Origin: Lindgomyces ingoldianus
Lineage: Eukaryota > Ascomycota > Dothideomycetes > Pleosporales > Lindgomycetaceae
Direction: 5' to 3'
DNA length: 63,712 bases
NCBI RefSeq assembly: GCF_010093535.1
Contig: NW_022985206.1
Span: 179,864-243,575 of the forward strand
The number at the start of each line of letters is the position of its first letter. The stretch's first letter is position 1. Under the pieces are notes generated by a model that worked only from the letters and a program-made list of their open reading frames with translations, had not been told where the DNA came from and did not search any database. Below are positions 31,687-60,812 of this stretch, one piece after another. The position numbers and the translations under genes are program-made.

Positions 31687-34648
31687 ACGTACCTAACAGG
31701 TTGGCTGGCTACACAGGTTAGCTAGCCACTTTTGCTAAGCCCCTACCACACTCTACCTATCTACATAATGCTTTAACAACAACACTAGATTAAATCTTCT
31801 AAAGAATGTTAAATACAGCTTACTTTTTAAGCTTTTAAATAAAACTTAAAACTCTTTTTATAACATGCTGCAGCTATTTATAATATCTTTTATTAGCAGA
31901 GCTTGCTCTGCTTATTATATTCGGGTTTGCAGAACGAAAAGTTTAGCAGAATCTCCTCTTTTAGACGCGCTAGTTAGTTATAATTTCTTTAGATAAACCC
32001 TAGTAACACTATTTCTCTGTTACTTTATATATTTCTTATATTTTTTTTTAAAAAAAAATGTATACTTAATATAAGTGCACCTTTATGTTAATTTGCACGT
32101 AGTTTGCTCTAGCATGTGTTATATAAAACATGTTTAAATTATAGTTAGTTGCGTCTATTCTACCTCTCTAGCTACATTAGTGTGTTAGGGATTTGCATCA
32201 GCCACGCTTAGTTGCAGGCTGTGGTAGGTTGCGTGCTGCACGTGTTTATCCTGCTGCAGTTAAATATTGTTATTATATGTCTATTACTTGTCTAATACTA
32301 CTTTGCTAAGCATTATGCTGTAACTATTCTTTAACCTAAATAACCTACTTTAATGCGCTAACTGTTACTGTCTACTTAATCTTATAACTAATTAGTAGTT
32401 CTTTTAATAAAAGGTGCGTTGTGCTTCTTGTACTACTAAACCCTAGCCTACTAGAAAATGCCTAGCAACCCCTACTGCTCTAGATCCCTTAGCTAATATA
32501 AAGAGAAAATATTACCTACTTACTAATATTACAAACGCAGCAAATATCTTTATAGTTATAGTTATAGTTTAAAATAATTTCTATTAAAATAGTGTTACTT
32601 GCTTTTGTTAAACACACACTACTTATTTTTACTAAACACGCTTTACTTAATCTTGTTAACTAAATAGTGCTTTTTTTTTGTTAACTACTTAACACCTAGT
32701 CTTATACTTTTACATTTTTATGTAAATGTAGTAAATGCAACACTGCTTTTATTAAAGGCATTAATTAATTTAAGGATAGCGTTAAGTAGAAGGTAAACTG
32801 TGCAAGTTGTTAAGGTAATATGCAGGCGCGTACTATACAGTATAAGGCCTTTAAGCTTATACTACTATTAAACTTAGGTCTAACTCCTGCGCTCCTTTAA
32901 AATGTGTACTAGTTACATATATTAGAATAGACTTATTAATTTTGTAGACTACACCTATCTAGTAATGTTTCTAGCATTTTAAGCGTTTTTTTTACTTCTT
33001 AGTTCTTTTTATTATTATAGGGAGATCTTTTTAGATAATTTCTAGTTACCTTATTATAAGAATTAGTAAACAGCAATACTGTGCGTTTATTAGAGAATAA
33101 GGCTAGAATAGATGCTTTATTAAAGCAGAACAAAGAGCATACAGCATGCTAGAAACGCCTTATATTATGTAATTTACTATAGATAAATCTCTAAATAATC
33201 TAGCACTATTAGATAAAAATAAGAGTCTAATAGTAAAATTTTACTTAGAGCTTAAAAAGATAAATCTAGAGAAATATAAAGTGTGTAACTAGAGGTAGTT
33301 TAATTTAAATATTGCTCTACATAAATGCGCTACATGTTAAAAAGACAGGTGCAACTACTTAGACAATCTTAATTAGGTGCTCTTATAGGGTGCTGTAAAT
33401 AGGCTAGATCCTAGTCCTATACTATCTTATCTTTTAACACTAACTACAACTAAGAAACAACTTCTAGCTAGAGTGCAAATTATAATAAAGCTAAGGCAGC
33501 ACTAGGGTTAACAGTATAAGTATTAGAGGTATGTTTACTATTTTGCTGTAAATACTGTAAAGGTCTTCTCTTATTTACTACTATTTCTATATAATCTTAA
33601 CATTATTATCTTAAAGCCTCTAGCATCTAAAGGTAAAAATGTTAGTGCTATTAATTACTAATTTAGAAAGGACTATAAAGTATAGTAAACTGTTATATTA
33701 TAGTAGCTTTTTTTTTTAAATCTAACTATCCTAGCTATTATAACATTAAAATTAACTAAAAAGCACTTAATGCTTTACCTCTTAATAACTATATTAATAA
33801 TTAGCTCCCTACTGTTTATGCAACTAAAAAAGAGTTGTTAGCTACTCTAGATAATGTTAATGTAAACCTAGTGTCTAATACCTGCACTAATACTATTTAC
33901 AAGCATAACGCTAATCTGCTGTCTAATTCTAGTACTACTGCTAGTGTAACTAATAACTGTTAATAAAGTGTTATAGGTGCACTTAGAATACTTAATTAAG
34001 GTGTAAGTAAATTCTACACTTCTTTTAGTGTACAACACCTATAGCTGCCTAGTACTAAGCGCTTAACAGTTAGCTCTAGCATAGGTTGTAGCGTTTTGTT
34101 ATATTTTATAGCTAGTATCTATCCTAACACCTTAGAATAAGGTAACGTAACTAGCTATTATAAAAGCTTAGTAATAAAAGACCTAGAAATTAAAAAGTTA
34201 GAAAATCTTAATTATAGAATTGTCTCTAACTTTACTCTAAACATTGTAGAATTTAAGACCTTATAATAGCATATCTAGAGGATAACTAATTAGACATACC
34301 TTTCTATAGCCTCTATAAAACAGACTCCTCTGTCTAAATTTAGAAACTATAAGCTGCTGCTAAGCCTAGCGTTTCTATCTTTATTTCTATGTAAAGTAGT
34401 AGAGTTTGTTTAGCTGCGCTTATAAGAAATTAATTATCTATCTTATATCTAGCATTTTATTTGCTATAAGGATAGACAGTTTACACGCTACCTATAGTTC
34501 TGTTTTACCGCATTTAACACCCTTCTCTACTAAGAGTCTACTACTAAGGTAAGTTTCTATATTAAGAAATTTTTTAGTAATAAAGACATTATAGTTAAGT
34601 TAATATAGAAGGAGTTTAATTAGCTAGATAGTAGCTAGTGTTTAATTA

Positions 34649-34979
34649 TGTCAGATATGCGCACCTACTGTCAAGACAGGAGGAACGTTTGACGAAAGCT
34701 GCTACATAGTACAAGCAATAAGCTTGAACAGCATGTTGCAGCAAATTGCAGCAAATTGCAGCATGTTACAGCATTTTGCAGCAAATTGCAGCATGTTGCA
34801 AGCTGGTCGCGCATAGGGCTAGTGCGCGAGGGACTCGGATCGGAAAAACAAAAGCCGAGCAACACGAGTAGAGCAGAAAAAGGATCGATAGATCAACACA
34901 ATCAATCATCATCCCATACATCATATCCAAAACCCATCATTCATCTTAGGAAGCCTAGAAACAGTGCTTTAATCTGACA
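34649..34979. mobile_element. Solo LTR (331 bp), family S, nearly unmutated
   Basis: Begins TGTCAGA and ends TCTGACA, a 7-bp inverted terminus of LTR type, flanked by the perfect 5-bp duplication AATTA (34,644-34,648 and 34,980-34,984). It interrupts the Helitron N-domain reading frame. Unlike its surroundings it keeps CpG sites and normal GC content. No internal retroelement part remains, so it is a solo LTR; orientation cannot be fixed. Confidence 0.88.
34729..34798 (+). repeat. Seven 10-bp tandem units inside solo LTR S
   Basis: Seven head-to-tail decamers of the form (A/G)CAGCA(A/T)(A/G/T)TT, e.g. GCAGCAAATT and GCAGCATGTT, with an exact 10-bp period (one helical turn). A regulatory role in the LTR is possible but unproven. 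Confidence 0.9.
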
Positions 34980-35346
34980 AATTAATTCTATTATAAGGCT
35001 TATAGCTAATATTTATAAGACTTAATTTTATTAAGTATAAAAAAGGAAAGCGTTAAAAGCAATAGTTTGTCTATTACCTATCTATTACCTTTATATTACG
35101 TGTTTGCTAAAATTAATAAGGTGCGCTAACTACACTATCTAACTTTATTTATTATGTTCTCTACTGCAGATTAACATTAGCACAATTTATTACGCTTTAT
35201 GCTAAGGTTTTTAGAGTAAAAGGCTGTAGACTTAAAGCAACGCGTTTGCTTTACTTCTAATTTTATTTAAAATAATCCTTATATTATAGCGTATTATTTT
35301 AATAAGCAATTTTAGCTTTTTAAAACCTACGTTCTAACTCCTAAGT

Positions 35347-35938
35347 TGTTACAATCCTTGCTTCGTGGAAGCACTCAGGTCTTATGATATTCCTACGGGG
35401 GGGTAGGACGGATGGTAGGGGCCAACCGGTAGAGTGTACAGTCCTACGTACAGGCTATTAGGCTAATAGAGGGTTTTAGGGTGACCAGATTGTGGTTTGC
35501 CCTTTATGCGGCAGTAGGGAGGCCAGGTTAAACAGTCCTGTTAGACAGGGTTAGAGGTATATATAGTGCAAGATATATAAATAGTATTACAGCTCTTTAG
35601 AAAGCTAAATCCTACTTAGTCTATGTAGAGAATAAACTAAATGTTAAACACACCTCCTAAAGGTTGTTTAATGCAGTGACTATATACATGTACTAGAGGC
35701 GCTAAGGGGAGCTAGTAGAAGCTCCTAGGAGCCTGCTAAGGAGAGCTCCTATAAGCTCCCTTAGGCTCCCTAGACTTGTGGCCTGTCTTCCTATTAGACC
35801 ACGCATTCCTCTATTACTGCAGGCAGCTGTGCTGCCTCTATGCCCTCTAACTAGTTTATAAGCAAGCCCTGTCCTAATCTAGCTAGGTTGTGGAGCACTG
35901 CTAGTGGAGTTACGCTAGTCTAACCATAGACTGTAACA
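35347..35938 (-). repeat. 3' LTR of the outer gypsy element
   Basis: 592 bp with TGTTACA/TGTAACA ends. Contains a run of AGCTCC/GGAGCT words around 35,705-35,775. It is less mutated than the right-hand LTR in its first 200 bp and keeps several CpG sites there. Confidence 0.92.
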
Positions 35939-36099
35939 CGCTGCCCCTCCTCTCTAGCAGCGTCCTCGCTGCTCTGCTTACAGAACTGTGTTAGTAAAAG
36001 TTTATTTATAAAGTAGGCGCTTACCTACTAGAAGGCATTTTTAACATCTATCTTTTTTAAACTAAATAGCTTACTAGTCTTGTTTGTCTTATTATCCTT

Positions 36100-39000
36100 A
36101 TATTACCTTTTATTTTAATCCTTTTTACTAGATAAAGATAAGGCTCTATAGCACTTACTAATTTTTAGAGTTATTCTATATGTTAACTTTGTCCTTAGAT
36201 AAATATGTTAAGTGTGTAAAAAAGCATAGTAAGTATAATGCTTTTATTTCTAACACTACTTAAAATTAGTTAAAAAAAGAAAGAGAGATGCTTCTTTAAA
36301 AGGCTAAAGCCTTACAGGCCTAGGACTGTGCACTATTAGATAAATAATTAGCTTAGGACTAGAAGTAACTTTATTTACAGAAGAAAATACTAGAGGTAAA
36401 AGATAAGAAGTGTTCTAAACAGGATTATATTTAAAAATTACTAGATCTGCTAAAGGCTTAATGTGTAAAGTACTTAAAAAAAAAGACCTTTTCTTCTTAG
36501 ATAAAATAGAAGCCTTTAAGGCTAAAGTAAAGGGTTGTTCTCCTTTACAGCTCTTATTAGCTAAGACTTATCTCTAAAGGCTGCTACTATCTAGTAATAA
36601 CATAGCTATTCTTTTTAATATAAGTGCTTTATTGCCTAGCTAGTTTCTTTTAGATAAGCCTAAAGGTACTTTTATACTAACAGCTGCGCGTTCTGCAAAT
36701 TTTTAGCTAGTTTTTATATATTTTTACTAGTAAGCTACTTTTTCTATTTTACTAAAAATTCTTTTTAGTTCTTTTAATTACTAATAATGTATTTAACTTT
36801 ATATTCTGTTTCTTTATCCTTTTATTTTTACATAGATAAAGGAATTTCTTTAAGTGCCTTTTTTAATCTAGAGACATAAAACTATAGGTGTATTTTTATA
36901 TATAAAGAAAGCTTAAGTTTATAGTTGTCTTGTTAAGTTTAGAGAACTTTATATAGTTTTATTCTTTTCTCTGCTAACTTTCTAGAAGGTCTAGGTATCT
37001 TAAGGTTCTTAGTGTTAAGATACACATAGTCTTTTAAATAGATCTCTAGTCCTAGTTATTATAATTTATTTATGTATTTTTTTATTATTTCTCTACTAGA
37101 TCTAGCTTCTATTACTAACTTTTTATATATATGTTATAAATTTTTTAGCTAGTCTATTAATTTCTATAAGTCTATAGGTTAGTTTCTTTATAGCGTAAAG
37201 TAAAAGTTATATTTAAAATTAGCTTTATATAGTGTTTTTTTTATTATAGCTAATTCTATATTATTAATAGCTAATTATGCCATTAAAAGCTATTCTGCCT
37301 AGTTATGCTAAGTGTAGGAAATGTACTTTCTTAAGTATCTTTTTACTTTTATGTTTACTTTTTTAGTTTAACTATTTATCTACAGGTAATAGGCAGTTAA
37401 CAGCTCATATGTTATGCTAAGGTGCTATATTACTGCTTTCTAGAATCTACTAGTAAACAGCTTATCTTAGTTAGAAATAATAATTTTAAGGTATTTATAT
37501 ATAGATATTACATTTTGTTTTAATTTATAGATAAATTTTTTAGCTATTATTATCTTTTTTAAGAGCTAAGTGTGTAGATATTTAGTAGTTTTATTAAGGG
37601 CTACTATAATTATATTATACATCCTTTCTGTCCCTAGTTCTTTAGATAAAGGTAGTTCTATAATAAAGTCTATTATAATTATTATTTATAGTAGTTTTAG
37701 TGCTTTAATTAGGTAAAAGTATTTATAAGTTTTATGCTTTTATAAGTTATTTCTATTACAAGTGTTGCATTCTTTAAGTACTTTAGTACATAGTTGCTTT
37801 ACCTTTAGAATTTATTATAGTATAGCTGCTCTTAACTTTTTCTAGAGAGTGCTTATTTTAGAGTGTTTAAATATTAAAGATTTATAATATTTCTAGATTA
37901 AATTCTTTTATTCTTACTTATTTACTATAAGCATGCAGAGTTCTTTTATAAGTTAAGGCCTATTATAGATTTATTTTTTATTAGTTTCTTTAAAAAGTGT
38001 AAACTTCTTAGTTTTTTTTTCTTCTTTATTAAAGTAATCTAGCCTCTAGCTAAGAGCGTTAGCCTGCTAATTTTATGCTCTAGGGACGTGCTTAATAATA
38101 TAGTTAAACTATATAAGTTCTATTACCTATTTTACATGCATTAGTAATAGTTTCTTTATAGTTAAAAATGTAACTAGGTTTACATAATCTGTTATAATAT
38201 AAAAGAGTTTTACTATTCTATGTAGCTTTATAGCCTATACTTTTACTATGTTTAATATAGCCTTAAGTTCTTTATTAGGTATACTATAGCTTACTTTAGG
38301 TCCTAAAAACTTAGCAAAGTAGTACACTACTAGGTGCTATTTTCTGTCCTCCTGTTTTTAATAAAGCGCAGCTCTGCTAGTGTAAGGCCGGATGTCCCAG
38401 AACGGGCCAGTATGGCCTCACCTGACCTGTTTGGAGGTCGTATGACCTGTGCTTCGTATATAAGCATGAATCCTGACAAGCGAAGCTTGGCAGCGATTCG
38501 TCTCTCTTACAATACACTCCTATCTTTCTCCGAAAGCTTGCTCTCAGTGCTATCCGTGCTACTTACCATCCCATCTTTACAGCTAGCTTCTAAGGATGCA
38601 TCTGTGTAGATTTTTATATCTAGTTATAGGTTATACATCCTTAGCACTAGTTTAGCTGTTATAGCTTGTTTTAGCGCTATAAATGCTTTATTTATTTATA
38701 AAGTTTAAACAAATTTTGCTATTACCTGCTTTTTAGTAGTAGCATTTATTAAGGGTATAGTAATTTTTAAGTAGTTTTTAATTATTTGTCTAACATATTC
38801 TAATAGTCTAAGGAATTCTTTAACTTTTTTAACTATTATAAGTTCTAGCTACTTAAGTACTTTCTACACTTTAGCTAAGTTAATTTTTATTTCTTTACTA
38901 TTAATTATAAATTTTAAGTATTTTATTTCTACAACATAGAATTTATATTTAAAGAGCTGCAAGTAGAGTCTGTACTTCTGTAACTACTCTAGGACTTTTT

Positions 39001-42000
39001 ATACCTTTTATACATAGTCTTCTAGAGTGTCTTTTAAGTAGATAAGGACATTATCTAGGTACACTAGAGTAAAGACATTAAGATATAGGTTAAAGGCTAT
39101 GTTAATAATTTACTAAAATGTTGCTAAAGTGTTTATTAAGCTAAATAGCATTACTAATAGTTTATAAAGTCTTTACAGAGTTTTAAATGCTGTAAGCTAC
39201 TTATTTCTTTTTTTATCTTTATTTTATTAAATCTGTCTTACATGTTAAACTTTATAAAGTATTAAGTTTCCTTTAGTTAGTTTATAATATTTTATATAAT
39301 AAGTAAAAGAAACTAATTTTAAATTATATTATTATTTAAAGTTCTATAGTCCTAATAGACTTAGATTTTTCTTTTTTATTTATTTATAAAAACTACTGCT
39401 AAAGCAACTAGGCTATAACTTTTCTAGATATAGCCTTAGGCTAACATTTAGTTAACATATTTCTATAAGGCCTCCTTTTATATTTTAGTTAAGGGATAAA
39501 GCTTATAAGTCTTTAGATTATAGTTTTTTATTAAGTTAATAGCATAGTTCTAAGGCTAGTGTAGTAGTAGTTTTTTTAAGTCCTTTAGTGTTTTAAACAT
39601 GTCTTTATAGTCTTTATATTTAAAAAAAATACTGCTTTTATTTTAGATTTAAAAAATACTAACTTATTTTACATTTTTATTAGTCTTAATTTTTTTATAA
39701 GAAACTTTTTTAAGTTCTTTTTTTATTATTCTTACTGCCTAAGCTTTTAGCTTTTAGCTTTTAGTAAGAGAATTTTTAGAGTTTTCTTTTCTTAAGGAAA
39801 TAACTGCTACCCTGCTTTACTTATTTATAGACTAGGTATAAGTTATTATAGCATGCTAACTAGGTTATGCGCGCGTAGTTATTAGAGGTTTCTATAGTTA
39901 TTATTCTCTAATTAATTATAAATTTATGCGCTTTAAGCTAGTTATAGCCTAAAATTGCATTATACTTGCCTTCTAATAAGAGTATGTTTATAAACCTCTA
40001 GTTTTTTATGTTTAAAGTTTTAAAGTCTTTTTTATATATTTCTAAGTTAATTTATTCTTTACTATACTTAATTAAAGATGTATTAGTAAAGGTTACCTTA
40101 AACAAGTTTTTCTTTATTTAAAATAAAATGCTTTATCTGTCTACCTAATTTTTATCTATTATAGTAAACATACATCTACTGTCTACTAGGGCTAGTCTAG
40201 GCTACTCTTTATACGTAAAGGTGGTTGTTAGACTGTGTCCTGCCCCTTATCTAACTATAACTAAGGCTAATATATTATAAAGAACTTCTTTATCTAAAAA
40301 AGGGTAAAGATTAATGTTTTATAAGTTATTATTAAACTTATTTTTTTTTATAAATTTAATGCTTTTAGTTGCAGCAGTTAGCTGCTTTACATTTATAATC
40401 TTTAACTAGGTAATATAACATTAGATAGTTTTTTTTTCTTACTACTTTTTACTAAAAGTAGTAAAACCTGTAGTTGTCTTATTTCTTACACACTGCCTAT
40501 CTCTTTTATTTATATAGAGGGGTAGTTTAGCAGGTGTAATAGTTTATAGTTTTGTAGGCTAAAGCTGTTTCTTGCTATAAGCATCTATTATAGTTCTTTT
40601 CCTATGTAGGCTACTAGCCTGTTCTGTGCTTGTTGTCCTAGTGCTTAATACAGTAACATTATGTGCACTAGTACTAAGAGTATAGACAATTATTAAGTCT
40701 ATATAAAGTATTAAGGGGGCTTTTCTAAGTCTACTAAGAGTATTCTTGTGTTTGTATAATCTAAATAAGGTGTCTCTTTTATTAGTAATTATTAGTGCTA
40801 TAAGTTTTATTTCTGCAGAGTGTACACTAGCTGTAGCTTTATTGCATTACTAAAGCCTTTCTACTAATTACTAGGCTTAGGAGTAGCGTCTTAGGCTTTC
40901 TAGGTACTAGCTTTAGAACTTTAAACCTAGCAGGTCTACCTAGTCCTTCTAGTTTTTAATCTTAGATCTAGATAAAAAACTACTATTATTTTTTATTATT
41001 TATAATGTTATATTTAACTTTAGCTATCTACTGTATTATGTTAAATGTTAGGTAGTTATTACTAATATTTATTTAGTAAAGCATTACTATGTAATAACTT
41101 AGGTAGTTATATTATAAACTACACTTCTAGTATTTATATTTCTAGAACTATTTAGAAAGCTCTTTTACTAAAGTGCTAAAAGTCTAGTCTTAAAAAAAAA
41201 ACTATTTTTCTTTTTTTTTAAATATTTATAATATATTCTTAGATTTAAGTCTTTTCTTTATATTTTTTAAGAATTATAAGGTCCTATAACACTATATTTA
41301 GGCTGCTAAAGTTTTAAATAACTACCTTCTAATACACTTTAAAGTAGTTATTTAAAGAATAGTTTTTTTTATATTACTAGTAAAGTCTATTATTTAATCT
41401 TTCTAATATTTTTTTATTTATAAGGCTGTATTTAGCAGTAATAGCTTTTATTATTACAGTAGTATTTTTATTCTCCTTCTTCTAAAAGTCTAGGCAGTTT
41501 TAGTAGAAATGTCTTACTTTTTTATAGTTTAGGTAGGCCTTATCCTTTAGCTACTTTTATTATTTCTTTATTAGGGGCAGCTTATTGCGTCCTAGGACTT
41601 AGCTTTTTTTAAAAAGAGGGCTCTATGTATACTTTACGTAACTAAGGTCTATTAGTTCTTTATTATATTATAAAAGTTTTTTTTTTTTAGGAATAAACTT
41701 TAGTCTTTAAAAAGTTCTTTTTTATTTTTTTTATTTTTTACACTCTTTATAACAGTTGTTATAAGTTATTACTTATATAATAAAGTTTTTAAAAGTAGTT
41801 AGCTTTTTACTATATATAAACTTATCTTTTACTATTTTACTTAGTCTGTTATAGAACATGCAACAGAGGGCTTTCTAGTCTGTCTATCTATAAATAGCTA
41901 ATTATTCTCTACAGTGTACTGCATAATTCTAGACTAAGCTAGTACTTTATTTTATAGTATCTAGTTTATTAGCTGCAAATTTTTTTTTATTTAAAGTTTT

Positions 42001-42400
42001 ATAAATAGCTGTTAGAGCATCTTTAAAGTTTTTAATACTACTAAACACTTCTTTTATCTTAAGAGTAAGTGCTTTACTATTTGCTCTAAAGTTTATTTAA
42101 TTATCTGTGTAGGGCTAGAACTAGATTATAGAGAGGCCTTTTAGGTGTAGTTCTATCTAAGATATTATTTCTATGTTAGTTTAAAATACTCCTTTATTAT
42201 ATTACATATAAAGGTAGCACCTTATAAAAAATAGTTAAAGGTTCTTTAGTAATTCTTTAAAAGGCTTTAAAAAAGCTAGCCTTAAAGTTTTCTTAGCTAT
42301 AATGCTTACTTTTTTAGTTAAAATGTTCTAAATTTTTACTAGCTCTACTTATAGTTTATGTATTTAATAGGCGTAATTAGTAGCTTCCTAGAGGCTTAAA
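36100..42400 (-). pseudogene. gag-pol of the outer gypsy element, inactivated
   Basis: Read on the minus strand, from right to left: a gag zinc knuckle at 41,535-41,494 with the spacing of CX2CX4HX4C, but both first cysteines now Tyr (YLNYKKVRH then NC). Reverse transcriptase follows, with DYRTLNNNII near 39,350 and the catalytic box YLDN at 39,061-39,050 (YLDD expected), then IYLKDTLEDYV. Integrase follows, with a zinc-binding C..C (NTCNRN) and the DFI.ELP.SKE.GTERMY catalytic stretch at about 37,790-37,600. Stops and frame breaks are everywhere. A solo LTR of another family interrupts the region at 38,381. I see no clear chromodomain at the end. Confidence 0.8.
38381..38581 (+). mobile_element. 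Solo LTR (201 bp) of the inner gypsy family, nearly unmutated
   Basis: Starts TGTAAGG and ends CTTTACA, flanked by the 5-bp duplication GCTAG (38,376-38,380 and 38,582-38,586). It matches, in inverse orientation, both LTRs of the element at 42,536-48,831 and has the same length. It keeps all nine CpG sites I can count, so it approximates the unmutated family sequence. A TATATAAG box lies at about 38,458-38,465. Confidence 0.93.
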
Positions 42401-42535
42401 AGTCTTAGAGGGGTTTATAATTCTACTGCTTTTTAGTAAAAGTTTATAACTTTTTATTAAAAGTTTACTAATTTACTAATGTTTTTACTAATCTGTTAGA
42501 GTTTCTTAATGTTTTCCTAGATTAAGTTAATCTGT

Positions 42536-42736
42536 TGTAAAGATGGGATGGTAAGTAGCACGGATAGCACTGAGAGCAAGCTTTCGGAGAAAGATAGGAG
42601 TGTATTGTAAGAGAGACAAATCGCTGCTAAGCTTCGCTTGTTAGGATTTATGCTTATATACAAAGCACAGGTCATACAACCTCCAAACAGGTCAGGTGAG
42701 GCTATACTAGCCTGTTCTGGGACATCTGGCCTTACA
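42536..42736 (-). repeat. 3' LTR of the inner chromovirus
   Basis: 201 bp. By eye it retains four of the nine CpG sites present in the solo LTR at 38,381; other differences are transitions. The polypurine tract abuts its inner edge. Confidence 0.93.
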
Positions 42737-43342
42737 TTATCCCCCCTTATAGTAGTCCTACAACTTAGAGGATAGAACAGATAAAAATAGGCCTAAGTAG
42801 CATAAGAAAGTGTTACATAATGCCCTAAAAACTTACTCCTACCTATTTTAGTTAATTCTATGTAAGTTTATTTAAAAATAACCTAGAGTTACTAGGTAAA
42901 GGTAAAGTAAAAGTACAAAGTAAAAGTAAAGGTAAAATAGCAGTATATCTTACGCTAATAGAGTAGTGGTTAGGACAGTATATATAGGGTCTAACTGTCC
43001 TAGAAATCTATCTCCTTTACACCTCTGCCCTCTCTACAGCTTAAAGTTTAGAAGATTCTAAACTTTTTAAAGTAAGTATATTCTAAGCCACTCTAGCGTA
43101 ATCTAGCGCAAAGGGGTGCTAACAAGCTTTAATAGTCCTATCCTACCCTGCTTACGCCTGCCTGTTGCCTAATCTGCTTTTAGCTTCTTCTCTTATGCTT
43201 AACTTTACTTAATAACTTTAAAATAGACTTCTGTAGCCTACTCTATTATAATCTAGCTATAGTTTCTTTTAAAAAAGATTAATTAGCCTTTACTAACATA
43301 AACTTACGCTTTAACAACTCTTATGTTTAATGTGTTAATAAA

Positions 43343-43606
43343 ATGTCCTGTAAGGGCATTATAAACAAGAGTAGTAGCTGTTATATGCTTATAGACAACA
43401 AGTTGTGTTATAGCATAAAGAAAAAGGGAATTAAGTACACTAAGTGTGCTTATTACCTTAAATCTAGTAAAAAGTGCTTTAAGGTGTGTATTCTAGCTCC
43501 TTCTAGCGTATTTACGCGTAGTCTGTCTAGGCTAACCCTAGATAGCTCCCTATTACCTTTAAACTTAAATAATAAGCTTTTAAAAACGCTATGCTTAACA
43601 TTTTAG
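43343..43606 (+). other. Antisense Lys/Cys-rich reading frame inside the chromovirus
   Basis: An 87-codon ATG-initiated frame on the plus strand, opposite to the pol gene, between the chromodomain and the 3' LTR. Its product begins MSCKGIINKSSSCYMLIDNK and has six cysteines in the first 50 residues with many lysines (SIKKKGIKYTKC, KSSKKCFKVC), suggestive of a metal-binding or nucleic-acid-binding module. After its stop, plus-strand text remains strongly Lys-rich at about 43,835-43,975 (VTKKKKKKHKALKKDSNKNK), as if one larger basic protein had been broken. I do not recognise a family. Either an accessory antisense gene of this retroelement or captured foreign DNA. Confidence 0.4.
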
Positions 43607-44859
43607 CCTTTATTAATCTACTTAACCTTACTTAGTTAGCGTAGGCTAACGCAATAGTTATGTTATAGGTAAACACTATTATTTAGTTTTTTTAAGTGTA
43701 AGTCTTCCTGTTGCAGCATAATCTAGCTTAATTAGCCTTATTTTAGCTTTTAATAGTTTATAGTAAAAACAAAATCCTGTACAATAACTATCTATACACG
43801 CACAGTAGCGTTATAGGCAAAATTACTAAGACTAGAGTTGTTTTTAAAAAGCGCGCCTACTCTAAAGCTAATGTTACTAAGAAAAAAAAGAAGAAGCATA
43901 AGGCGCTTAAGAAGGACTCTAATAAGAATAAAGCTGCAATAACTCTATCTAAGAAGGTAGGTGTGCGCTATTCTTAACTATTCTAGCGCTAACTAGCATA
44001 ATAGAAAAAATATAGTGTTAAAAGTGTCTATGTTACTAAAGCTAAGTAATGTTATTATATTAATGCTACTAAAGCTGCTAATGTAATCTACTGCGTCTCT
44101 AAAGAGCATAATAAGGCTAATAATATTAGAAATAAGGCTAGTTAAGATTAAACCTTAGCTAAAAAGAGGTAGCTAACTAGGTATAATAAGAAACATCTTA
44201 ATAGTTGTTCTGCTGTTGCAAATTCACCTATAGAGGACCTTAATGTCTAATCTAGGGCCCTAATGGCACAATCTAGTGTAATCTAGCGCATCCTATAGTA
44301 AAAATAGTTAAGAATGCATAGTATAGTGTAGTTTTAAGTTCTTTAGCTTAAGCTTTTTTCTTCTTTCCTTAATAAAGTTAAATACTCTTATATTATGTTT
44401 TTTAGACTTAAAGTGTAACTATCTTAGTAGTAATAAATTAATCTGCTTTTAGCTTACTTACTTTATAGGTCTTTTATCCTAAAAATTCTAGAATGTCCTG
44501 CTAGACTTAAACTCTGCCTTTTTCTTGCTAGTATAGGTTATTCTAGGCTAGAATGTTTATTTCTTCTACATAATAGATTTCTCTAGGTTAAAATAACTCT
44601 CTTCTTAACTCTAGCAAGCTATTCTATGCTAGAATAGCTTTACTTAGTCTAACTAAGAAATCTTAGGTCTAAATAGGCTATGTTGTCTTTTTATTTTTAT
44701 AGCGCTATTAAACACCTCTTATTAAAAAAACCTTAAGTAAAAAAAAAATAAAGTAAAGGTAGCTATACTTAATCTATTAAGTTACTTTCTTTTTTTTAAG
44801 AAGTTTAACCTAAACTAGCATAATTTAATCTTTTGCTATGTATTTCTTTGCTTTTTTAA

Positions 44860-47800
44860 AATACTTTTAATGTGTTTAAGCTAATGTTAGGTCTAAGTTC
44901 TTATAAGTTCTTCTTAGATAAATAACCTTTTTATTTTATAAAATATTTTTATACTCTAACTAAATTCTGTCTCTAGTTAAGTATTTTTTTTACATAGTAC
45001 ACATTATCCTTTATAGCGCGTAGAGTGTTCACAATTAGTTCTAATTGCAACTTAAGACGCCCTTTCTAGGTATATAGCTCTAAAAGTAAGACATAGAACA
45101 CTAGATAAACTTCTTCTAGATTAGGTAGGTCTACTTTATACACTTCTGCGCTAATCTAGGCTACAACTTTCTCTAGTTTTAAGAACTTCTAGTCTAACTT
45201 CTTCTTTAGCCTTATTAATTTTATGTATTTATTAGAGACTAATACCTTATTTTCTACTTATAGTTATATATGCTTCTGTTATTTGTCTGCATACTTTTTT
45301 TAATACACATTTATAGCAATAATTTTCTAGCAGCATTTTAACTATAGAGCAAGTGCTTTTGCAGTAACTTTGTTTACTATGTGCAATTCCCTCTAACCTA
45401 GGGGTTCTCTAGGCTAATCTGGCCCTCTTAGGTTTGCTCTGTAGTATGCTTAGAAAGGAGTAACTCCTATAGTTGCATGCACACTATTATTATACATAAA
45501 CTCTGCTATTAGCAACTACATTACTTAATTATTTTGTTCTAGGCAATAGTAACATCTAAGGTACTATTCTAGGGTTTAGTTTTGTCTTTTAGTCTGCCTA
45601 TTAGTCTTAGAATAGTAGGCTAACAAGAGAATCCTTTATATGCTAAGATAGTAATAAAAACTATCTTAGTACTTTAAGTTTATTATTAGCTTTTAATTAG
45701 AAATAATGTTCTTTAGAACTTTATAAAAGTAAATAACTTTTTTTAACTAAACCTTTACTAGGTCTAAAGCTTCCTAATTAGCTCTAGCTAGCACATAGTA
45801 GGCTATCTTAGTAAGACAGTCTACTATTACAAGGATTGCATTATATACTAACTCTAAGTATTTATAAGGGGGCAGCTGTGTTATAAAATCTATTGTGACA
45901 TCCTGCTAGAGCCTATTAGGCAGTAGCAAAGGGTGAAGGAGCCTATATAGGCAGTGTTGTAGAGCTACTAATTATCTGCACTTTAGGCAGTTATTATAGT
46001 ACACCTCTACATCCTTTCTAAGCCTTTTTTAATTATATTAACATATAATCTTTTTAAGCGTTTTTTTTTACACTAAAGTAGCCTACTAGTAGGCTGTTGT
46101 AGCACTTTTAGAACACTTCTACCTTCTCTTAGTCTATTATTAGGGTTTTTCTTTCTATATTAGCTATAGCATGTTGTTCTAGCCTATTCTAGGAATAAGT
46201 GTTTTTATTAAAGTTCTCTTTGTCTTTTATTTTACTCTTAGTGTCTAATAAGTCTATTTTATTATAGTTTTTTCTAATACTTAATATAAAGTCTTTATTA
46301 TTGTTCTTTTCTAGTTCTTTGCTTATAGCTTTTTTAGAATCTAGCTGTTTTAGCCTTTGTTCTTTTTTAAAGTAGTTCTTAGCTAAGCCTAAAGAATTTT
46401 AAGAATGTGTAATAGCTATAACTATTAATTCTTTATTATAATCTTATTAATTTAAAAGGTTGCACATGTCTATTACATACACTGCATTCCCTTTTTAGAA
46501 AGGCTGTTATAACTCCTTAATATAGTTAGGTCTTCTTAAGGGTCTATCTGCTAGGTTTAGCTTCTCTAGACAGTGCGTAATAACAAAATTATATTTTATT
46601 ATTCTTTTATAGGCTTAGACCTGCTAGTAGTTTAAAGTTTTAGTTTTTATAAACTAGCAAAGATTATTATAGTCTGTAAAAAGTTTAAACAGTAGACCTT
46701 AGAGGTAATGTTGCTAATGTGCTAAACTTTTATTAATAGTAAGCAACTCTTTATTATAGGTATTATAATTATACTTAGCTTTACTTATCTTTTTTAAGAA
46801 GAAGCTAATTAGCCTTTATTAAGCCCCTCTAGTCTTATTTAAGACTAATTAGCTTAAAATGCTACAGATTATGCCCTCTAAAGCGTTAACCTTTACTTTA
46901 GTTTTCTTATTAGCATTAAAATAAGCTAATATAAAAACTTTAAGAAATAAGTTTTAAAGCTTTTAGAAGGCTGCTCTACCCTTAAGACTAATATTAAGCT
47001 TCTAACTTTCTTCTTACCTTTACTTTTAACTACTCTTTACTACATCTAGGCCCTTCTAGGTTAGCTTAGTAAGGGGTAGAGCAATTAAGAAGAAGTTAGC
47101 AATAAACTGCCTATAGTAGTTTATAAACCCTATAAAAACACAAATATCCTAAACAGTCTTTAGCATTAGCTACTTCTAAATTATCTTAATCTTTAAAAAG
47201 TTAACTTTAACTCCTTTTAGGTAAACTATGTACCCTAGGTACTTAGTCTCTTACATGTAAAATTTACACTTACTAAGTTTTAAAAAAAGCTTTACTTTAT
47301 ATAATTTTTACAGCACTTTTTTAACATAAACAACTTGTTCCTCTTCTATGTTAGAATAGACTAGAATATTATTAAGGTACATAATACACGTTACATTAAC
47401 TAACCCTGCTAGAGCCTAGTTAATATAAGCCTAGAAAGCTACAGGAGCATTAGTAAGACTAAAAAGCATAACCTAGTACTTAAAATAACTATATTAAGTC
47501 TAGAATACTGTCTTCTACTTATCTTTTTTATAAATATGTAACATATAGTACACATTATAAATATTTAGCTTTGTATACTACTTTACTTTTTTAAGTCTTT
47601 TAAGAGATTCTAAGATAAGTAGTAGTAAGTAATAATTTTTTATTATAATTTAGTTTAGGCCTCTATAATCTACATAGAGCTTTAACCCTTTATTTTTTTT
47701 CTTTATAAATAAGATTAAAGCTCCTGTAGAAGACTTAGACTTCTAAATTTACTCTCTTTACAGATAATTATTAATATATTTATAAAGATGCTGTAACTTA

Positions 47801-48404
47801 TACTCTAACAAGTTATACAGTAGTTAGTAAGGAGGCTTTGTCCCTTCCTCTAGCTTAATAGCTAGATCCTGCGGGCTATGCAGTAGTACTTTTAACATCT
47901 TATTAGACTTAACTACGTCTGCATATTCTTTATACTCTAGTCTTAACTTAAGCTCTACAGGTCCTAAAGAATCTTTAGTGTTATTAGACAGCACGCTGCA
48001 GACGTAGACATCTGTATTAGGACTCTACATAGTTTGCTTAAACTCTGCTGCGTCTTCTAAGGCTACCTTAGCGTACTTTAGCACACTATAGTCCTTTACG
48101 CCCCTAAATAACATACGTTTTATATAAAAGTTTAGCTTTAGATTAAACTAATTAATTTAAAGTAAACCTAAATATATTAAGGGTCCCTTTAGGTCTGTTA
48201 CTATAAACAGCACTTTATAAGTCTAAACTTTTTCTTAGGAGTCTATAATCTTTATGTTTACAACTGTAAAGCTGTAGACAGTAAAGTCTAATCTATTAGG
48301 TGCCTTTAGAAAGACACCTAGCAGGGGCTTAATCTTAAGATCCTGCTCTTTAGCTATTGTAGCAGACAGGACGTTTAATTAAGCTCCTCTGTCTACTACA
48401 GCCT
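44860..48404 (-). pseudogene. pol of the inner chromovirus: protease, RT, RNase H, integrase, chromodomain; inactivated
   Basis: Minus strand, right to left. An aspartic protease remnant, AVVDRGA then LNVLSATIAKEQDLKI (48,404-48,340; DSGA expected). RT fingers, STGALILFIKKKNKG then LKLYVDYRGLN (about 47,735-47,655). The catalytic box YLNNILVYS at 47,379-47,353, where both aspartates of YLDD became asparagine. Then YLGYIVYLKGVKVN, FIGFINYYR and FIANFFLIALPLTKLT, the RT/RNase H connection of gypsy elements. Next a stretch ending VFYVLLLELYT, the usual lead-in to a chromodomain, and the chromodomain itself (YYVKKILN, KYFIK.KGYL.KKN) at about 45,010-44,870. Chromodomains steer integration to heterochromatin marked by H3K9 methylation, which fits the location. 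Not functional. Confidence 0.85.
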
Positions 48405-48630
48405 AAAGGTCTTCTAATAACCCTATGCTTACTGTTACTAACAATAAGGTTAACCTTTTTAGGTATAACAAGTCTTAAAGGTTTCTAAGCTCCTTTTTGT
48501 TGCTTACTAGGGCAATATAGGCTAAGAGAAAGAAGCTTAGTTCTTCTAGCCCTGCCCTTTTCCCTTCTGCTTATTCTTGTTAGACTTGTCCTTGTCTTTG
48601 TCCTTTGTGGGACAATCTAGGGAAATATAA

Positions 48631-48831
48631 TGTAAAGATAGGATGGTAAGTAGCACAGATAGCACTAAGAGCAAGCTTTTAGAGAAAGATAGGAGTGTAT
48701 TGTAAAAGAGATAAATTGCTGCTAAGCTTTACTTGTTAGGATTTATGCTTATATACAAAGCACAGGTCATACAACCTCTAAACAGGTCAGGTGAGGCCAT
48801 ACTGGCCTGTTCTGGGACATCTGGCCTTACA
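48631..48831 (-). repeat. 5' LTR of the inner chromovirus
   Basis: 201 bp with no CpG left at all. All differences from the solo LTR at 38,381 that I can see by eye (about 20) are C-to-T or G-to-A. It is more mutated than its partner at 42,536. Confidence 0.93.
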
Positions 48832-48959
48832 TCTGTTCTGCTAAGACAGCTTTGTTTTAGGTAGAAACATCTACTAATTCTAACAAGGCTGCATAAGCTA
48901 TGTTAGAATCTAGGTTGTGTTAAAAGGTATCTATACTTTTTAAAGAGGGAGGTGTTTAA

Positions 48960-49553
48960 TGTTATAATTCTTGCTTTATAGAAGCACTTAGGTCTTATAA
49001 TATTCCTACAGGGGGGGGTAGGACAGATAGTAGGGGCTAACTAGTAGGGTGTACAGTCCTACGTACAGGCTATTAGGCTAATAGAGGGTTTTAGGGTGAC
49101 TAGATTATAGTTTGCCCTTTATGCAGCAGTAGAAAGGCTAGGTTAAATAGTCTAATTAGATAAAGTTAGAGGTATATATAGTGCAAGATATATAAATAGT
49201 ATTACAGCTCTTTAAAAAGCTAAATGCTACTTAGTTTATATAAAGAATAAACTAAACATTAAACACACCTTCTAAAGGTTGTTTAATGCAGTAACTATAT
49301 ACATATACTAGAGGCGCTAAGGGGAGCTAGTGGGAGCTTCTAGGAGCCTGCTAAGGAGAGCTCCTATAAGCTCCCTTAGGCTCCCTAGACTCGTGGCCTG
49401 TCTTCCTATTAGACCACGCATTCCTCCATTACCGCGGGCAGCTGTGCTGCCTCTGTGCCCTCTGACTAGTTCATAAGCGAGCCCTGTCCTAATCTAGCTA
49501 GGTTGTGGAGCACTGCTAGTAGAGTTACGCTAGTCTAACCATAGACTGTAACA
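48960..49553 (-). repeat. 5' LTR of the outer gypsy element
   Basis: 594 bp, beginning TGTTATAATTC and ending ACTGTAACA. Inside it (48,959 leftwards) 128 bp of element sequence remains before the inner chromovirus insertion at 48,836. Confidence 0.92.
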
Positions 49554-55293: not shown

Positions 55294-55849
55294 TGTAAGG
55301 ACGGAGCTCTGTACCACTACGCCAATACAACTAAAAAGGTGCGAATAATCAACCAACAGTTGATTATTGCGTACAGAATAGTATATATACCCGTCGCACG
55401 TAAGCACCATCTTGGCCTTACATTATCCCACTTCTTAGCAGACGCATGTCCCAGGCGTCACATGACCTACCCGCAGCTCAGAGGCGCCTATGCGCATGTC
55501 TCGGTTACCGGCCAGAGGCTGACCACCTGCGGCCCAGAGGCGCGGGATAAACACGACGCAACGCTCAGTGGCCACGCCAGCTAAGCCATACACACTAGAC
55601 CTCCCAGCAGCTACAACGTGGCGCCAGAAGAGGCCGCCTCACGTTTCAGTCTAAAAACTGGCAAAGCTGTCCGAGGTGTGGGTCGAACGCGCGACCATCC
55701 TTGTTGTTAGTTGATTATTATGTAAGGACAGAGCTCTGTACCACTACGCCAATACAACTAAAAAGGTGCGAATAATTAACCAACAGTTGATTATTGCGTA
55801 CAGAATAGTATATATACCCGTCGCACGTAAGCACCATCTCGGCCTTACA
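55294..55849 (-). mobile_element. TRIM (terminal-repeat retrotransposon in miniature), 556 bp, nearly unmutated
   Basis: Two 129-bp LTRs at 55,294-55,422 and 55,721-55,849, beginning TGTAAGGAC and ending CGGCCTTACA or TGGCCTTACA, differ by only about three transitions. The pair is flanked by the 5-bp duplication AGATG (55,289-55,293 and 55,850-55,854). The 298-bp interior is GC- and CpG-rich with no coding capacity. In minus orientation the LTR starts TGTAAGGCCA like the chromovirus LTR, has a TATATATAC box, and a purine stretch AAGAAGTGGGATAA abuts the 3' LTR, matching the GGGATAA end of the chromovirus tract. Inference: a non-autonomous element moved by a relative of that chromovirus. Each LTR contains an AATAATCAAC/GTTGATTATT hairpin. 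Confidence 0.9.
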
Positions 55850-56142: not shown

Positions 56143-56188
56143 GCAAGCTCTGCTTTTACAGATTATTTATAAACTGTCGTAGTATTTT
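56143..56188 (+). repeat. Helentron 3' terminus: inner inverted repeat plus hairpin
   Basis: GCAAGCTCTGCT (56,143-56,154) is the inverse of the first 12 bases of the element at 31,895. It is followed after three bases by a 20-bp hairpin (56,158-56,177) and about 11 bases to the junction with the host Fot1 sequence, which resumes as ATAACACTAAG. Confidence 0.7.
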
Positions 56189-56238
56189 ATAACACTAAGT
56201 AATTAACACGCTAGACAGCCTTTATAAGTAAAATGCTA

Positions 56239-57338
56239 ACGTACTTCATGGGCGAGTTGCTCACACACCCGAGTCGCTCACTTTTGCCAAGACCCCACCA
56301 AACCACCCTTCCTACACTAATGCATTCCCTACAACACTACTTAGACGCACTAAAAGAATGTTAGATACAGCTTACACTCTAAGCTTTTAAATAAGACATA
56401 AAACTTTTAAAAAAATGTGCTATAGCTATGTGCAAGGTCCTATAAAAAACAATAAATAACTATAGCGCTAGACAACTTTTACAAGCTAATTCTACAGCTA
56501 AATTACAAAGGCTAGGCAATAAAAAGAAGCAGGTGATTGTTAAGACTATACTTAAGCTATATGCGCAAGGAATTTCCCCTTAGATAGCATTTATAGCATT
56601 TATAGCTAATTCTTTGCGCGCTAAGCGTAATCTAGGCCATGTTTGCATAAACTGGCCTAGTACGTTTGTAAAGTGTTATTTAGAGCTTAAAGTAATGTTT
56701 AAGCGTAAGTACAACTATAAGAGAGCCCTCTGCAAGAGTCCTAGGGTAATTTAGGGCAGGTTTAGCCTTATAGAGAATATTAAAGCTAAGTATAGCATCT
56801 AGGATAATAACACATACAACTTTAGTAAAATAGGGTTTATAATTAGCTAGATATCTCTTAACTATACTTGCGCTTAAAACTTTACTTTAAGCTCTAAATA
56901 ACGCTTTACAAACATACTAGGCTAGTTTATGCAAACATAGCCTAGATTACGCTTAGCGCGCAAAGAATTAGCTATATTAGCTATAAATGCTATCTAAGGG
57001 GAAATTCCTCGCGCATATAGCTTAAGTATAGTCTTAATAATCACCTGCTCCTTTTTATTACCTAGCCTTTATAATTTAGCTGTAGAATTAGCTTATAAAG
57101 GTTGTCTAGCGCTGTAGTTATTTGTTGTCTTTTATAGGACTCTGCACATAGCTATAGCACATTTCTTTAAGAGTTTTATGTCTTATTTAAAAGCTTAGAG
57201 CGCAAGCTGTATCTAACATTCTTTTAGTGCGTCTAAGTAGTGTTGTGGGGAATGCATTAGTGTAGAAAGGGTGGTTTAGTAGGGTCTTGGCAAAAGTAAG
57301 CAACTTAGGTGTGTGAGCAACTCGCCCATGAAGTACGT
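56239..57338 (+). mobile_element. Fold-back element FB2: second 1,100-bp palindromic Fot1 derivative
   Basis: Bounded by TA (56,237-56,238 and 57,339-57,340). Left arm 56,239-56,703, right arm 56,873-57,338, loop 56,704-56,872. The outer left end is well preserved (ACGTACTTCATGGGCGAGTT, CpG kept), so this copy is less mutated than FB1. The loop reads on the plus strand as transposase-like text (KYNYKRALCKSPRVI, SLIENIKAKYSI, NTYNFSKIGFIIS), taken from the middle of a Fot1 transposase. Inserted in the type B Fot1 host, whose sequence resumes at 57,341. Confidence 0.9.
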
Positions 57339-57799
57339 TAGCCTAAATTAAAAAATCTAACTAAGCTTAAAAAAAAAGTAGTTATTAAGTATATACTTAA
57401 GCTTATTACATACAGATTTCTTTTTAGGCTTATAGCTATAGCTAATATAGCTAATTTCTTACATGTAAAGTGTAATCTAGGCTAAGTTAGCTTAAACTAG
57501 CCTAGTATGTAGGTTAAGCACTGCTTTAAGTTTATAATAAAGTTTAATTATAAGTATAATTATAAGAAAGCATTTTATAAAGATCTAAAGGTTATCTAAG
57601 GCTAGTTTTACCTAGTAGCTAATATAAAATCTAAGTATAGTATCTAGAATAAAAACATATATAACTTTAATAAGTTAAGCTTTATAATAAGCTAGATATT
57701 AACTAGAGCAGTTATTATAGCTTTAAAAAGATAAAAATAGCTAAAAGTAATATAGTAAAGTAATAAAAAAGTAAATAATAGTTATTTAGAGCATTAATA

Positions 57800-59662
57800 A
57801 CGTACTTTATAGGCGAGTTGCTTACACACCTAAGTTGCTTACTTTTACTAAGACCCTACTACACTACTTTTTCTACACTAATGCATTTCTAACAACACTA
57901 CTTAAACATGTTAAAGGAATATTAAATGCAGCTTATGCTTTAGGCTTTTAAATAAAATATAACACTTTCTAAGCAACACGCTGCAGCTATTTATAGGGTT
58001 TTTTAAAAAATAATAAGTAACTAACACACTAGATAACTTTTCTAAGCTAATTATATAGCTAACTTATAAAAGCTAGATAATAATAAAAAGTAGGTAATTA
58101 TTTAGCACATACTTAAGCTAGATGTGTAGGAATTTCCCTCCTAGCTAGCAGCTATAGCTAATATAGCTAATTCTTTACACGCTAAGCATAATATAGGCTA
58201 TATTAGTATAAACTAGCCTAATATGTTTATTAAGTATTACTTAAAGCTTAAAGTAAAGTTTAAGTATAAGCATAACTATAAAAAAGCTTTTTATAAAGAT
58301 TTTATAGTAATTTAAAGCTAGTTTAACTTTATAAAGAATATTAAAGCTAAGTATAGCATTTAGAATAATAACATATACAACTTTAATAAGATAAAGTTTA
58401 TAATAAGCTAGATATCTACTAAAGCAGTTATTATAAGTTTAGAGAGATAAAGACAGCTAAAAGCAGTCTAGCTAGGTAACTAGGAGTAGATAATAGCTAT
58501 TTAGAGCATTAATGCTAAAAAGTAAGCTATTTTACTTTTTATTATTTTTTAAGGTAGCAACTACTTTTTAAACTAGTATAAAAAAAAATCTACTTTAAAA
58601 TTAAGTTATTATAATCTCTAAGCGCAGCTAGACTACTAATTAGCTTAGTCTAGACTAGTTAAAGCACTTTAATGTGTATATAAAGAAGTTTACTATTAGT
58701 AGCTACTGTCTGCTAGTTATTAATAGCTATAAAAGCTATAACTTACTTTATTTCTAGTAATACTATAAAAATAATAAAATTATTACTATTTACATACCTT
58801 TTTACTTATTACACCTTTTATAGCTACTTAATGTAGGTTGTTTTACTTCTTTAAAAAAAGTGTATAAGCGCTAAGCTAAAAACCTTATACATAACTAAAT
58901 TACTTATATTATAAAAATAAAGTTTCTACTATGCTTTAAAGCAGCCTATAATGCTATAATTACTTTTAGTAATATCTAAGAAAAGTTCTAAAGCGCTAAA
59001 TTAGTTTCTTTTAACTTATAATAAGTTATAATAAGCTTTAATGTAAAGTTGCGCACTCTATTACTACTACTACTTATATATAATAAGCCCTAGTAGTTAT
59101 AAACCTTAAGTAATACTCTAGAACTTAAGTTATAATTAATGCTTATAAAAATAAAAATTTAGAAGTATATAAATAGTTTACTAGCGTCTATAGTTAAGGC
59201 GTTTAAAAAAGTTTTAAAAAAAGTAGTAATAATTACGCATAAGCTAGTGTTAGTATAATAAAAAATTACTAAGCTTTAAGCAGCTAATAAGGCTGCTATA
59301 TAATGTAAATTACATAAAAAAAGCAGATTAAAGTAAAAAAAACCTTAATAATTTAAAAAGGCCTACACTTAACAGCTCTAAAGAAGTTTAAAGCGCGCAG
59401 TAATAAGAAGAAAGTAAAGAAGCAGGTGTAAGCTAAAGTAGGTAAGCTATCCTAAAGGCGCTGCAGACAGTGCAATTAGGCTAGGCATAACACACAAATA
59501 TGTAAGCAAGAAGCAGAAGTAGTATCTAAATAATATTCTAGGCTGTACTGTACTATATAGTGCTAGAGCGGGTTGTTATAGGCTATAATAGAGTTTGTTA
59601 GGGTGGGGTCTTGGCAAAAGTAAGCGACTTAGGTGTTTAAGCAACTCGCCTATGAAGTACGT
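57800..59662 (+). mobile_element. Complete Fot1/pogo-type transposon, terminal-repeat type A (1,863 bp), inactivated
   Basis: TA on both sides (57,798-57,799 and 59,663-59,664); ends ACGTACTTTATAGGCGAGTT and its inverse. The same terminal type occurs on the fold-back elements, so this is their likely parent family. The plus-strand transposase remnant includes INWPNTFVKYY-like text, IKNIKAKYSI, NNNIYNFNKIKFIIS and SLERQRQLKAV. The pogo/Fot1 catalytic box reads YNFDETGF in relatives I know of; here D-E became N-K (YNFNKIKF), again by G-to-A. Inserted in the type B element. Known: such transposases combine a CENP-B-type DNA-binding domain with a DDE catalytic domain. Confidence 0.85.
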
Positions 59663-60812
59663 TATAATAAAGTAAGCTATTTTACTTTTTATTATCTTTA
59701 AAAGCTGCTATTACTTTTTTACCTAGTATAAAAAAAATCTACTTTAAAACTAGGTTATTATAGTTTCTAAAAACAGCTAGATAATAAATAAGCTTAAGCT
59801 GCAGTAGTTAAAGCACTTTAATAAGTATATAAAAAAAAGTTATAAGCGCTTATTAGCTTTTTATTATTAATAGCTATAAAAGCTATAACTTACTTAATTT
59901 TTAGTAGTACTATAAAAAGAATAAAATTATTACTATTTATATACTTTTACACTTATTACACTTTTTATAGCCTTTTAATATAAGTTATTTTACTTTTTTA
60001 AAAAAGGTGTATAAGTGCTAAGCTAAAGATCTTATGTGTAACTAGATTACTTATATTATAAAACTTAAGTTTCTACTATGCTTTATACACACTTATAATA
60101 TAGTAATTACTTTTAGTAATATTTAAGAAGAGTTTTAATGCGCTAGTTTAGTCTTATTTAACTTAAAATAAGTTAAAATAGCTTTTTACATCTAGTTATG
60201 TACTTTATTACTACTACTACTTATTAATAATAAGCTCTAGTAGTTGTAAACTCTAAGTAATACTTTTAAATTTAAGTTATAATTAATGCTTATAAAGGTA
60301 AAAATTTAAAGGCATATAAATAGCTTACTAATGTCTATAGTAAAGGCCTTTAAAAAAGTTTTAAAAAGAGTAGTAATTATTACACATAAGCTTATATTAG
60401 TGTAAAAGAAAATTATAAAGCTTTAAGTAGTAAATAAAGCTGCTGCGCAATATAGATTACATAAAAAAAAATTAAATTCAAGTAAAAAAAACTTTAATAG
60501 TTAAGAATAAAGCTTGTCTAACTACTTTAAAGAAGTTTAAAGTGCGTAGTAATAGAAAGAAGCTAAAGACGCAAGTGTGCGCTAAAAAAGGTAAGCTAAG
60601 TTAAAAGTAATATAAGTAGTGTAATTAAACTAGGCATAACTTACATATGTGTAAGTAAGTAGCAGAAGTAGACTTTAAATAATATCTTATGTTGTATTAC
60701 TTTATATAGGGCTAAAGTAGGCTGTTTTGCGCTAGAATAGGGTGGTTTTAGTAGGGGCTTAGCAAAAGTGGCCGGCTAACCCGTGTAGCCGGCCAACCTG
60801 TTAGGTACGTTA

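Follow-up and report, generated by a model that had tools for sequence, protein, structure and literature searches.

In the genome of the dothideomycete fungus Lindgomyces ingoldianus, a 32-kb stretch of AT-rich DNA is made up of eleven transposable element insertions that are nested six levels deep. The stretch lies in a window of 63,712 nucleotides (G000:C45:179,864-243,575, where C numbers denote contigs) from the 68.4-Mb, 99-contig genome surveyed here. The first ~28 kb of the window are GC-balanced and carry long open frames, AT-rich DNA follows, and the nest reaches outward to at least 29,163-61,684. Its longest chain leads from a repeat called R through a short long terminal repeat (LTR) element, a Fot1-type transposon, a Helitron and a gypsy-like element to a second, inner gypsy-like element, for a total of six levels. 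For all eleven insertions, insert-free copies of the host sequence are present elsewhere in the same genome. We are confident that this is a genuine nest, which probably grew by single transpositions in silenced, gene-poor DNA and probably decayed through repeat-induced point mutation (RIP). An initial annotation of this DNA had described a four-level nest with a Fot1-type element as its outermost member. The architecture, coordinates and containment order given there are borne out, and insert-free hosts exist for all nine of the insertions it named. The depth is not, because two more host layers enclose the outer Fot1 element.

The outermost level found (level 0) is repeat R, whose left part occupies 29,163-29,533 and whose right part occupies 61,403-61,684. 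(Strands are given below for those elements to which one was assigned.) R is uninterrupted in all five copies fetched (loci L085-L089), where the match up to 29,533 continues directly from 61,403; in L086 the joint falls at 29,528 / 61,405. At 29,464-29,486 of the window, R lacks ~265 bp that are found in the five fetched copies, and this segment apparently lay between short direct repeats. The interruption is caused by the short LTR element (level 1; 29,531-61,404, plus strand), which has LTRs of ~290 bp and has been stretched over 31.9 kb by insertions. Its terminal repeats map to 29,531-29,668 plus 30,773 to ~30,920 on the left and to 61,115-61,404 on the right. The flanking duplication, AAAAT, is by itself a frequent sequence (0.3% of positions in the AT-rich half), and we count it because the empty sites agree with it. 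The element is found end to end with its own duplication at two of the 14 loci tested, namely L042 (1,632 bp, ACTAT) and L045 (1,762 bp, TATAG). Its left LTR in the window is split by a fold-back element (level 2; 29,669-30,772) that shares 92.6% identity with FB2, a second fold-back element described below. Three of the 15 loci compared (L042, L046 and L048) carry the left LTR without this insertion, and the site falls outside several of the 15. The short LTR element also includes a 110-bp unit repeated three times in tandem (31,008-31,347), and similar tandem units are seen in other copies.

Inside the short LTR element lies the outer Fot1-type DNA transposon (level 2; 31,687-60,808, plus strand), which is bounded by terminal inverted repeats with TA on both sides and extends over 29.1 kb. 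Fot1/pogo-like DNA transposons are characterized by terminal inverted repeats, a TA target, a DDE_1 domain and a length of ~1.86 kb. The elements of the nest share these features, including the TA target duplication, and differ in that the copies are heavily mutated and fall into two diverged subfamilies with different terminal inverted repeats. Among 24 loci examined for the flanks of the outer element, the flanks abut with alignment gaps of 0-12 bases at 17, which correspond to 14 distinct places; two others are the window itself and five lack an abutting pair.

Within the outer Fot1 element are the Helitron, FB2 (level 3; 56,239-57,338) and a full-length Fot1 of a second subfamily, type A (level 3; 57,800-59,662, plus strand). 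As had been reported, TA stands on both sides of the outer Fot1, FB2 and Fot1-A. FB2 is composed of a stretch that resembles positions 1-620 of Fot1-A and an inverted stretch that resembles positions 464-1. The remainder of the outer element had been predicted to align to the Fot1-A copy, and its pieces, aligned unjoined by BLAST to 57,798-59,667, do map in order. The colinear matches are 31,685-31,882 to 1-198, 56,196-56,228 to 217-249, 57,343-57,798 to 262-716, and 59,669-60,769 to 722-1824. A length of ~1,863 bp after excision had also been proposed, and the pieces total 1,856 bp, slightly short of that figure. The frame of Fot1-A, with stops read as X, matches DDE_1 (PF03184, E 3.4e-9). 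No DDE_1 match was found in the one minus-strand frame of the outer element that was scanned, and its assignment rests on homology to Fot1-A.

Five copies of the outer Fot1 subfamily were fetched out of 39 others scored. Three of them (L073, L075 and L076) are uninterrupted across the sites of the Helitron, FB2 and Fot1-A. A fourth (L074) lacks Fot1-A, and the fifth (L077) is not abutting at the Fot1-A site; neither of these covers the Helitron and FB2 sites. Thus, the copies that cover a given site lack the Helitron in 3/3, FB2 in 3/3 and Fot1-A in 4/5 cases. A relative insertion order had been proposed for the nest, and containment establishes it for elements that lie one within another. Nesting does not give the order of elements at the same level, such as the Helitron relative to FB2 and Fot1-A.

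The largest member of the nest is a rolling-circle element of the Helitron2 type (level 3; 31,894-56,188, plus strand), which measures ~9.2 kb without its insertions and lies at a TTAT^A target. Among 32 distinct 5' junctions in the genome, TTAT precedes the element in 28 and TTTT in four, and the 3' end reads ATTTT followed by A in 4/4 copies listed besides the window. The 5' arm forms a hairpin (z -2.97), and its asymmetric inverted repeat ends 34 bp before the 3' end. The damaged reading frame matches P0121, a RepHel relative of 1,025 amino acids with Helitron_like_N and PIF1 domains (PF14214, PF05970), at 42% over the whole query. The initial annotation had used the label Helentron, and we set this aside in favor of Helitron2/FoHeli-type fungal Helitrons, whose features, as given in the available passages of PMC5148889, fit better. 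According to these passages, FoHeli1 and FoHeli2 are non-canonical Helitrons of Fusarium oxysporum, and fungal Helitrons carry no endonuclease. The element of the nest shares with them a 5' hairpin, an asymmetric inverted repeat, a 3' ATTTT, a target that begins with TNAT, and no visible endonuclease; neither an endonuclease nor an OTU domain was detected in eight damaged frames, a scan of low power.

The same portions of PMC5148889 also point to differences. The distance from the inverted repeat to the 3' end is 34 bp here compared with 38-51 bp in FoHeli1 and FoHeli2, the length is ~9.2 kb compared with ~5-6 kb, and the terminal letters differ. Furthermore, the 3' repeat region of the nest element folds no better than shuffled sequences (z -0.61), and the copy is too damaged to prove its domain set. 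Two further results weigh, like the fold, against the Helitron2-type assignment. Pfam searches of the damaged frames gave only a sub-threshold match to Pif1_2B, and a genome scan with PF14214 returned 36 places with none on the contig of the window, so that this copy was missed. A relative of the element at L040:101-2655 (2.55 kb) is rich in YCR sites (Y, pyrimidine; R, purine) in its first 500 bp and has almost none in the remainder. The 5' end of this relative occurs at 39 other scored places in the genome with 95-99% identity.

Three LTR-type elements have inserted into the Helitron. Element S (level 4; 34,649-34,979), which is hardly mutated, is flanked by AATTA and is called solo-LTR-like from this duplication and its TG...CA ends. 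The outer Ty3/gypsy-like LTR retroelement (level 4; 35,347-49,553, minus strand) has LTRs of ~607 bp and a TAAGT duplication. The third element (level 4; 55,294-55,849) is a terminal-repeat retrotransposon in miniature (TRIM) of 556 bp with LTRs of ~129 bp, an AGATG duplication and little mutation. Both S and the outer gypsy are absent from 3/3 Helitron copies (C27, C4, C20), where AATTA and TAAGT, respectively, are present once. The TRIM is absent from 5/5 copies (C27, C4, C20, C48, C15), each of which has a single AGATG. The S family includes 39 other scored copies with 91-95% identity (40 scored of 1,087 candidates), and no full parent of S was found among those scored. TRIM copies are numerous in the genome and share 89-97% identity.

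The outer gypsy was in turn entered by two related elements. Solo LTR C (level 5; 38,381-38,581, plus strand; duplication GCTAG) sits at a split in the RNase H match of the outer gypsy, the left half of which is weak (E 0.011). The inner Ty3/gypsy-like retroelement (level 5; 42,536-48,831, minus strand; duplication TCTGT) has LTRs related to C, which is complementary to the two at 91 and 95%. The flanks of C abut in 37/39 other gypsy copies (40 places scored, one being the window). The two left over are a copy on C30 with a one-sided match and a copy on C16 whose left flank is split by a TRIM, and in the latter the nearest left-flank piece also abuts the right flank of the site. The TRIM in this C16 copy (G000:C16:1245297-1246650) and that in the nest belong to one family, and therefore the TRIM family also inserts into the gypsy family. 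The inner retroelement is absent from all seven gypsy copies fetched, and in these its flanks overlap by 5 bp.

On the minus strand, the outer gypsy encodes RNase H and SH3_Tf2-1 domains, and a reverse transcriptase was not found in the frames scanned. The inner retroelement has matches to reverse transcriptase, RNase H and, more weakly, SH3_Tf2-1. These domains uphold the Ty3/gypsy-like part of the earlier designation of the inner element as a chromovirus. The chromodomain that this name implies was not found: three frames behind SH3_Tf2-1 gave no match in either retroelement, with low power given the damaged sequence.

All five of the 5-bp duplications reported for the LTR-type insertions (AATTA, TAAGT, AGATG, GCTAG, TCTGT) are exact. 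Two random 5-mers within the nest match with a probability of 0.0032, and five independent matches would arise by chance at ~3e-13; therefore, the five duplications are not due to chance. We also asked whether the target sites were mutated before insertion, and only the TCTGT site was informative (TCCAT in 1/7 copies), which is too weak for use.

These junctions bear on two other accounts of the structure. In the first, similar AT-rich repeats were collapsed or misjoined by the assembler into a false nest. The families are indeed high in copy number and similar, conditions under which assemblers fail, and it weighs against our reading that the junctions were checked through other copies alone. 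However, misjoins would not create target duplications or sites of the TA and TTAT^A kind, nor would they produce junctions that match copies running through uninterrupted at these positions, and we consider an artefact highly improbable. In the second, part of the structure was made by recombination, conversion or segmental duplication of a smaller nest that had already formed. Clustered Fot1 copies occur also at other places, for example on C10, C16, C46 and C53, which shows that nests are a frequent feature of the genome. On the other hand, every insert has its own target site. Moreover, a search in which both junctions of solo LTR C were spanned, the only junctions so searched, found the insert at no second place among the 40 scored copies. 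Thus, copying of a pre-formed nest is unlikely, and stepwise transposition is the explanation that we favor. Silenced chromatin may have been permissive for the insertions or may have attracted them, and recombination between LTRs would have produced the solo LTRs.

The sequences of the nest are marked by C-to-T mutation. Among 29 copy pairs compared, 27 were used and two were dropped for having no match of at least 85%, and only columns with identical neighbors were counted. The 27 pairs show 1,507 C/T or G/A differences and 70 others. The composite RIP index is 1.35-1.57 in five large elements compared with -0.50 in the gene half of the window. In the mutated nest, TCA is found at 0.03 and TCG at 0.04 of expectation, compared with 1.09 for TCA and 1.0 for TCG in the gene half. 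Depletion of CpA is strong at TCA and CCA, weak at ACA and nonexistent at GCA. The same trinucleotide pattern is present in 240 AT-rich 500-bp windows of other fetched loci, some of which overlap. Both the C-to-T bias in repeats and the depletion of CpA that mark RIP are thus found here, and the damage would represent RIP that acted on each dispersed family over its own extent. RIP also depends on the sexual cycle and on RID/DIM-2, and in this regard DNA methyltransferase domains alone are predicted, at two loci (G000:C1:1702677-1703804 and C36:607502-608498) that are candidates for the RIP enzymes. Divergence between LTRs was considered as a clock and rejected. The differences between gypsy LTRs (47/49) and between inner LTRs (13/13) are nearly all C/T or G/A and therefore record mutation pressure, not time.

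Mutation of C depends on both neighbors: YCR sites are affected first and nearly erased, and RCY sites are almost immune. Sequences that have mutated little, namely the end of a second Helitron at 63,366 and solo LTR C, served as one set of references in three comparisons, and one reference was used in two of the three. Relative to these references, mutated sites amount to YCR 39/68, RCR 12/86, YCY 4/85 and RCY 1/85. The effect of a 5' pyrimidine in this set is significant at 3' A and 3' G (p ~2e-4 each), and it is not visible at 3' T and 3' C in so small a sample. Sites that vary between saturated copies amount to YCR 95/178, RCR 598/1670, YCY 781/1790 and RCY 33/3028, counts in which sites of the window are repeated across pairs. 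In these copies a 5' pyrimidine has a huge effect when the 3' base is T or C and a clear one when it is A; with G there, the effect is not significant (p 0.3). With each window site counted once in four family sets, RCY varies at 20/881 and YCY at 389/734. An earlier formulation in which only YCR mutates had to be corrected, given that RCR and YCY also vary between saturated copies.

YCR density provides a simple measure of this damage. Compared with 127/kb in the gene half, most large interiors have 0-3.8/kb, and RCY density is 99-162/kb throughout. The YCR/RCY ratio is 1.11 for the gene half, and for most of the large interiors it is 0.00-0.03. The remaining YCR sites cluster in the outermost 100-200 bp of the elements, which is the distribution predicted for mutation of each family over its own extent.

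The pattern can be described as a three-base RIP code: YCR is the first to mutate, RCR and YCY are hit later, in copies that are saturated, and RCY is practically beyond reach. We judge the case for such a code to be evenly balanced. Under such a code, a nest whose insertion order is known could serve to gauge how strongly and how far RIP acted in each layer. Several points count against it and its attribution to RIP: the rule derives from this genome with no named fungal genome as a control, and the methyltransferase locus on C36 has stops within the matched frame, which reflect introns or damage. A two-sided neighbor rule would also be unusual for RIP, which is the likely cause. The accessible passages of PMC4352252, PMC12543289, PMC8016269 and PMC6180176 give the preference of RIP as CpA and also CpT or CpG, and those of PMC4352252 report a three-base TpCpG preference in the basidiomycete Microbotryum. 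The available portion of PMC7296669 contains nothing on the neighboring bases of RIP sites. Our observations agree with the accounts of ascomycete RIP excerpted from PMC4352252, PMC12543289 and PMC8016269 in that repeats undergo C-to-T mutation, and they differ in that the preference described there is set by the 3' base, whereas here the 5' base matters too, with YCR first and RCY almost immune. In a literature search that covered listings and passages of papers, no three-base or preceding-base preference for RIP in ascomycetes was recognized. If the rule is true genome-wide, RIP indices based on dinucleotides blur the signal, and the YCR/RCY ratio would be a sharper detector.

At insertion junctions in the nest, long elements that are mutated give way to short ones that are spared. 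YCR sites are retained at 78-119/kb in four short pieces, which are solo LTR S, solo LTR C, the TRIM and the 5' end of the second Helitron at 63,366. The values for the three inserts are 84.6/kb in S, 119/kb in C and 104/kb in the TRIM compared with 0-9/kb in the surrounding interiors. Repeats that are too short for recognition may have been spared by RIP. Some values fit this reading poorly, because intermediate YCR densities are found in FB2 (21.8/kb), in the ends of the outer Fot1 (19.3 and 7.9/kb) and in the retroelement LTRs (21-68/kb). YCR sites are likewise retained close to the termini of long elements, and therefore an edge effect or late insertion is not fully distinguishable from the sparing of short inserts.

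Late insertion would mean that the short unmutated inserts are simply the youngest, having landed after the last round of RIP, and that their length is irrelevant. We regard this as possible, if rather doubtful. The TRIM LTRs differ at only 3/129 sites, and the DNA that flanks the TRIM has 1.4 YCR/kb on one side and 9.0 YCR/kb on the other, as late arrival would predict. However, near-full-length copies of S and of the TRIM are numerous and share 89-97% identity, so that both families are old enough to have diverged, and their members in the nest are little mutated. In addition, small size is given as the likely cause of low RIP in solo LTRs of Podospora in the available passages of PMC10787394, in which the sparing of such LTRs from RIP was already described. 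We therefore retain sparing by length as the preferred reading.

Nested transposable element clusters are already known in fungi, and the present one belongs with them but has more levels. The available passages of PMC4522978 describe 78 such clusters in Mycosphaerella graminicola (Zymoseptoria tritici), which span 7.5-63 kb with 2-7 different elements each. The deepest entry among the LTR-based clusters in Table 4 of that source has four levels. As far as these passages extend, the clusters resemble the L. ingoldianus nest in being RIP-affected, nested and flanked by 5-bp duplications, and many there have LTR bases. The nest differs from the Table 4 entries in its six levels and in its eleven LTR, Fot1, fold-back and Helitron insertions, each compared with insert-free host copies. 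The containment order across these four kinds of insertion is unambiguous, and thus the nest could provide a benchmark for transposable element annotation in mutated AT-rich DNA.

Beside the nest, in the GC-balanced part of the window, is a gene for a HET-domain protein (25,590-27,530). The closest named matches to the open reading frame are Zopfia, Aaosphaeria and Glonium proteins, which points to the Dothideomycetes, and the nearest named relative is from Zopfia rhizophila (45%).

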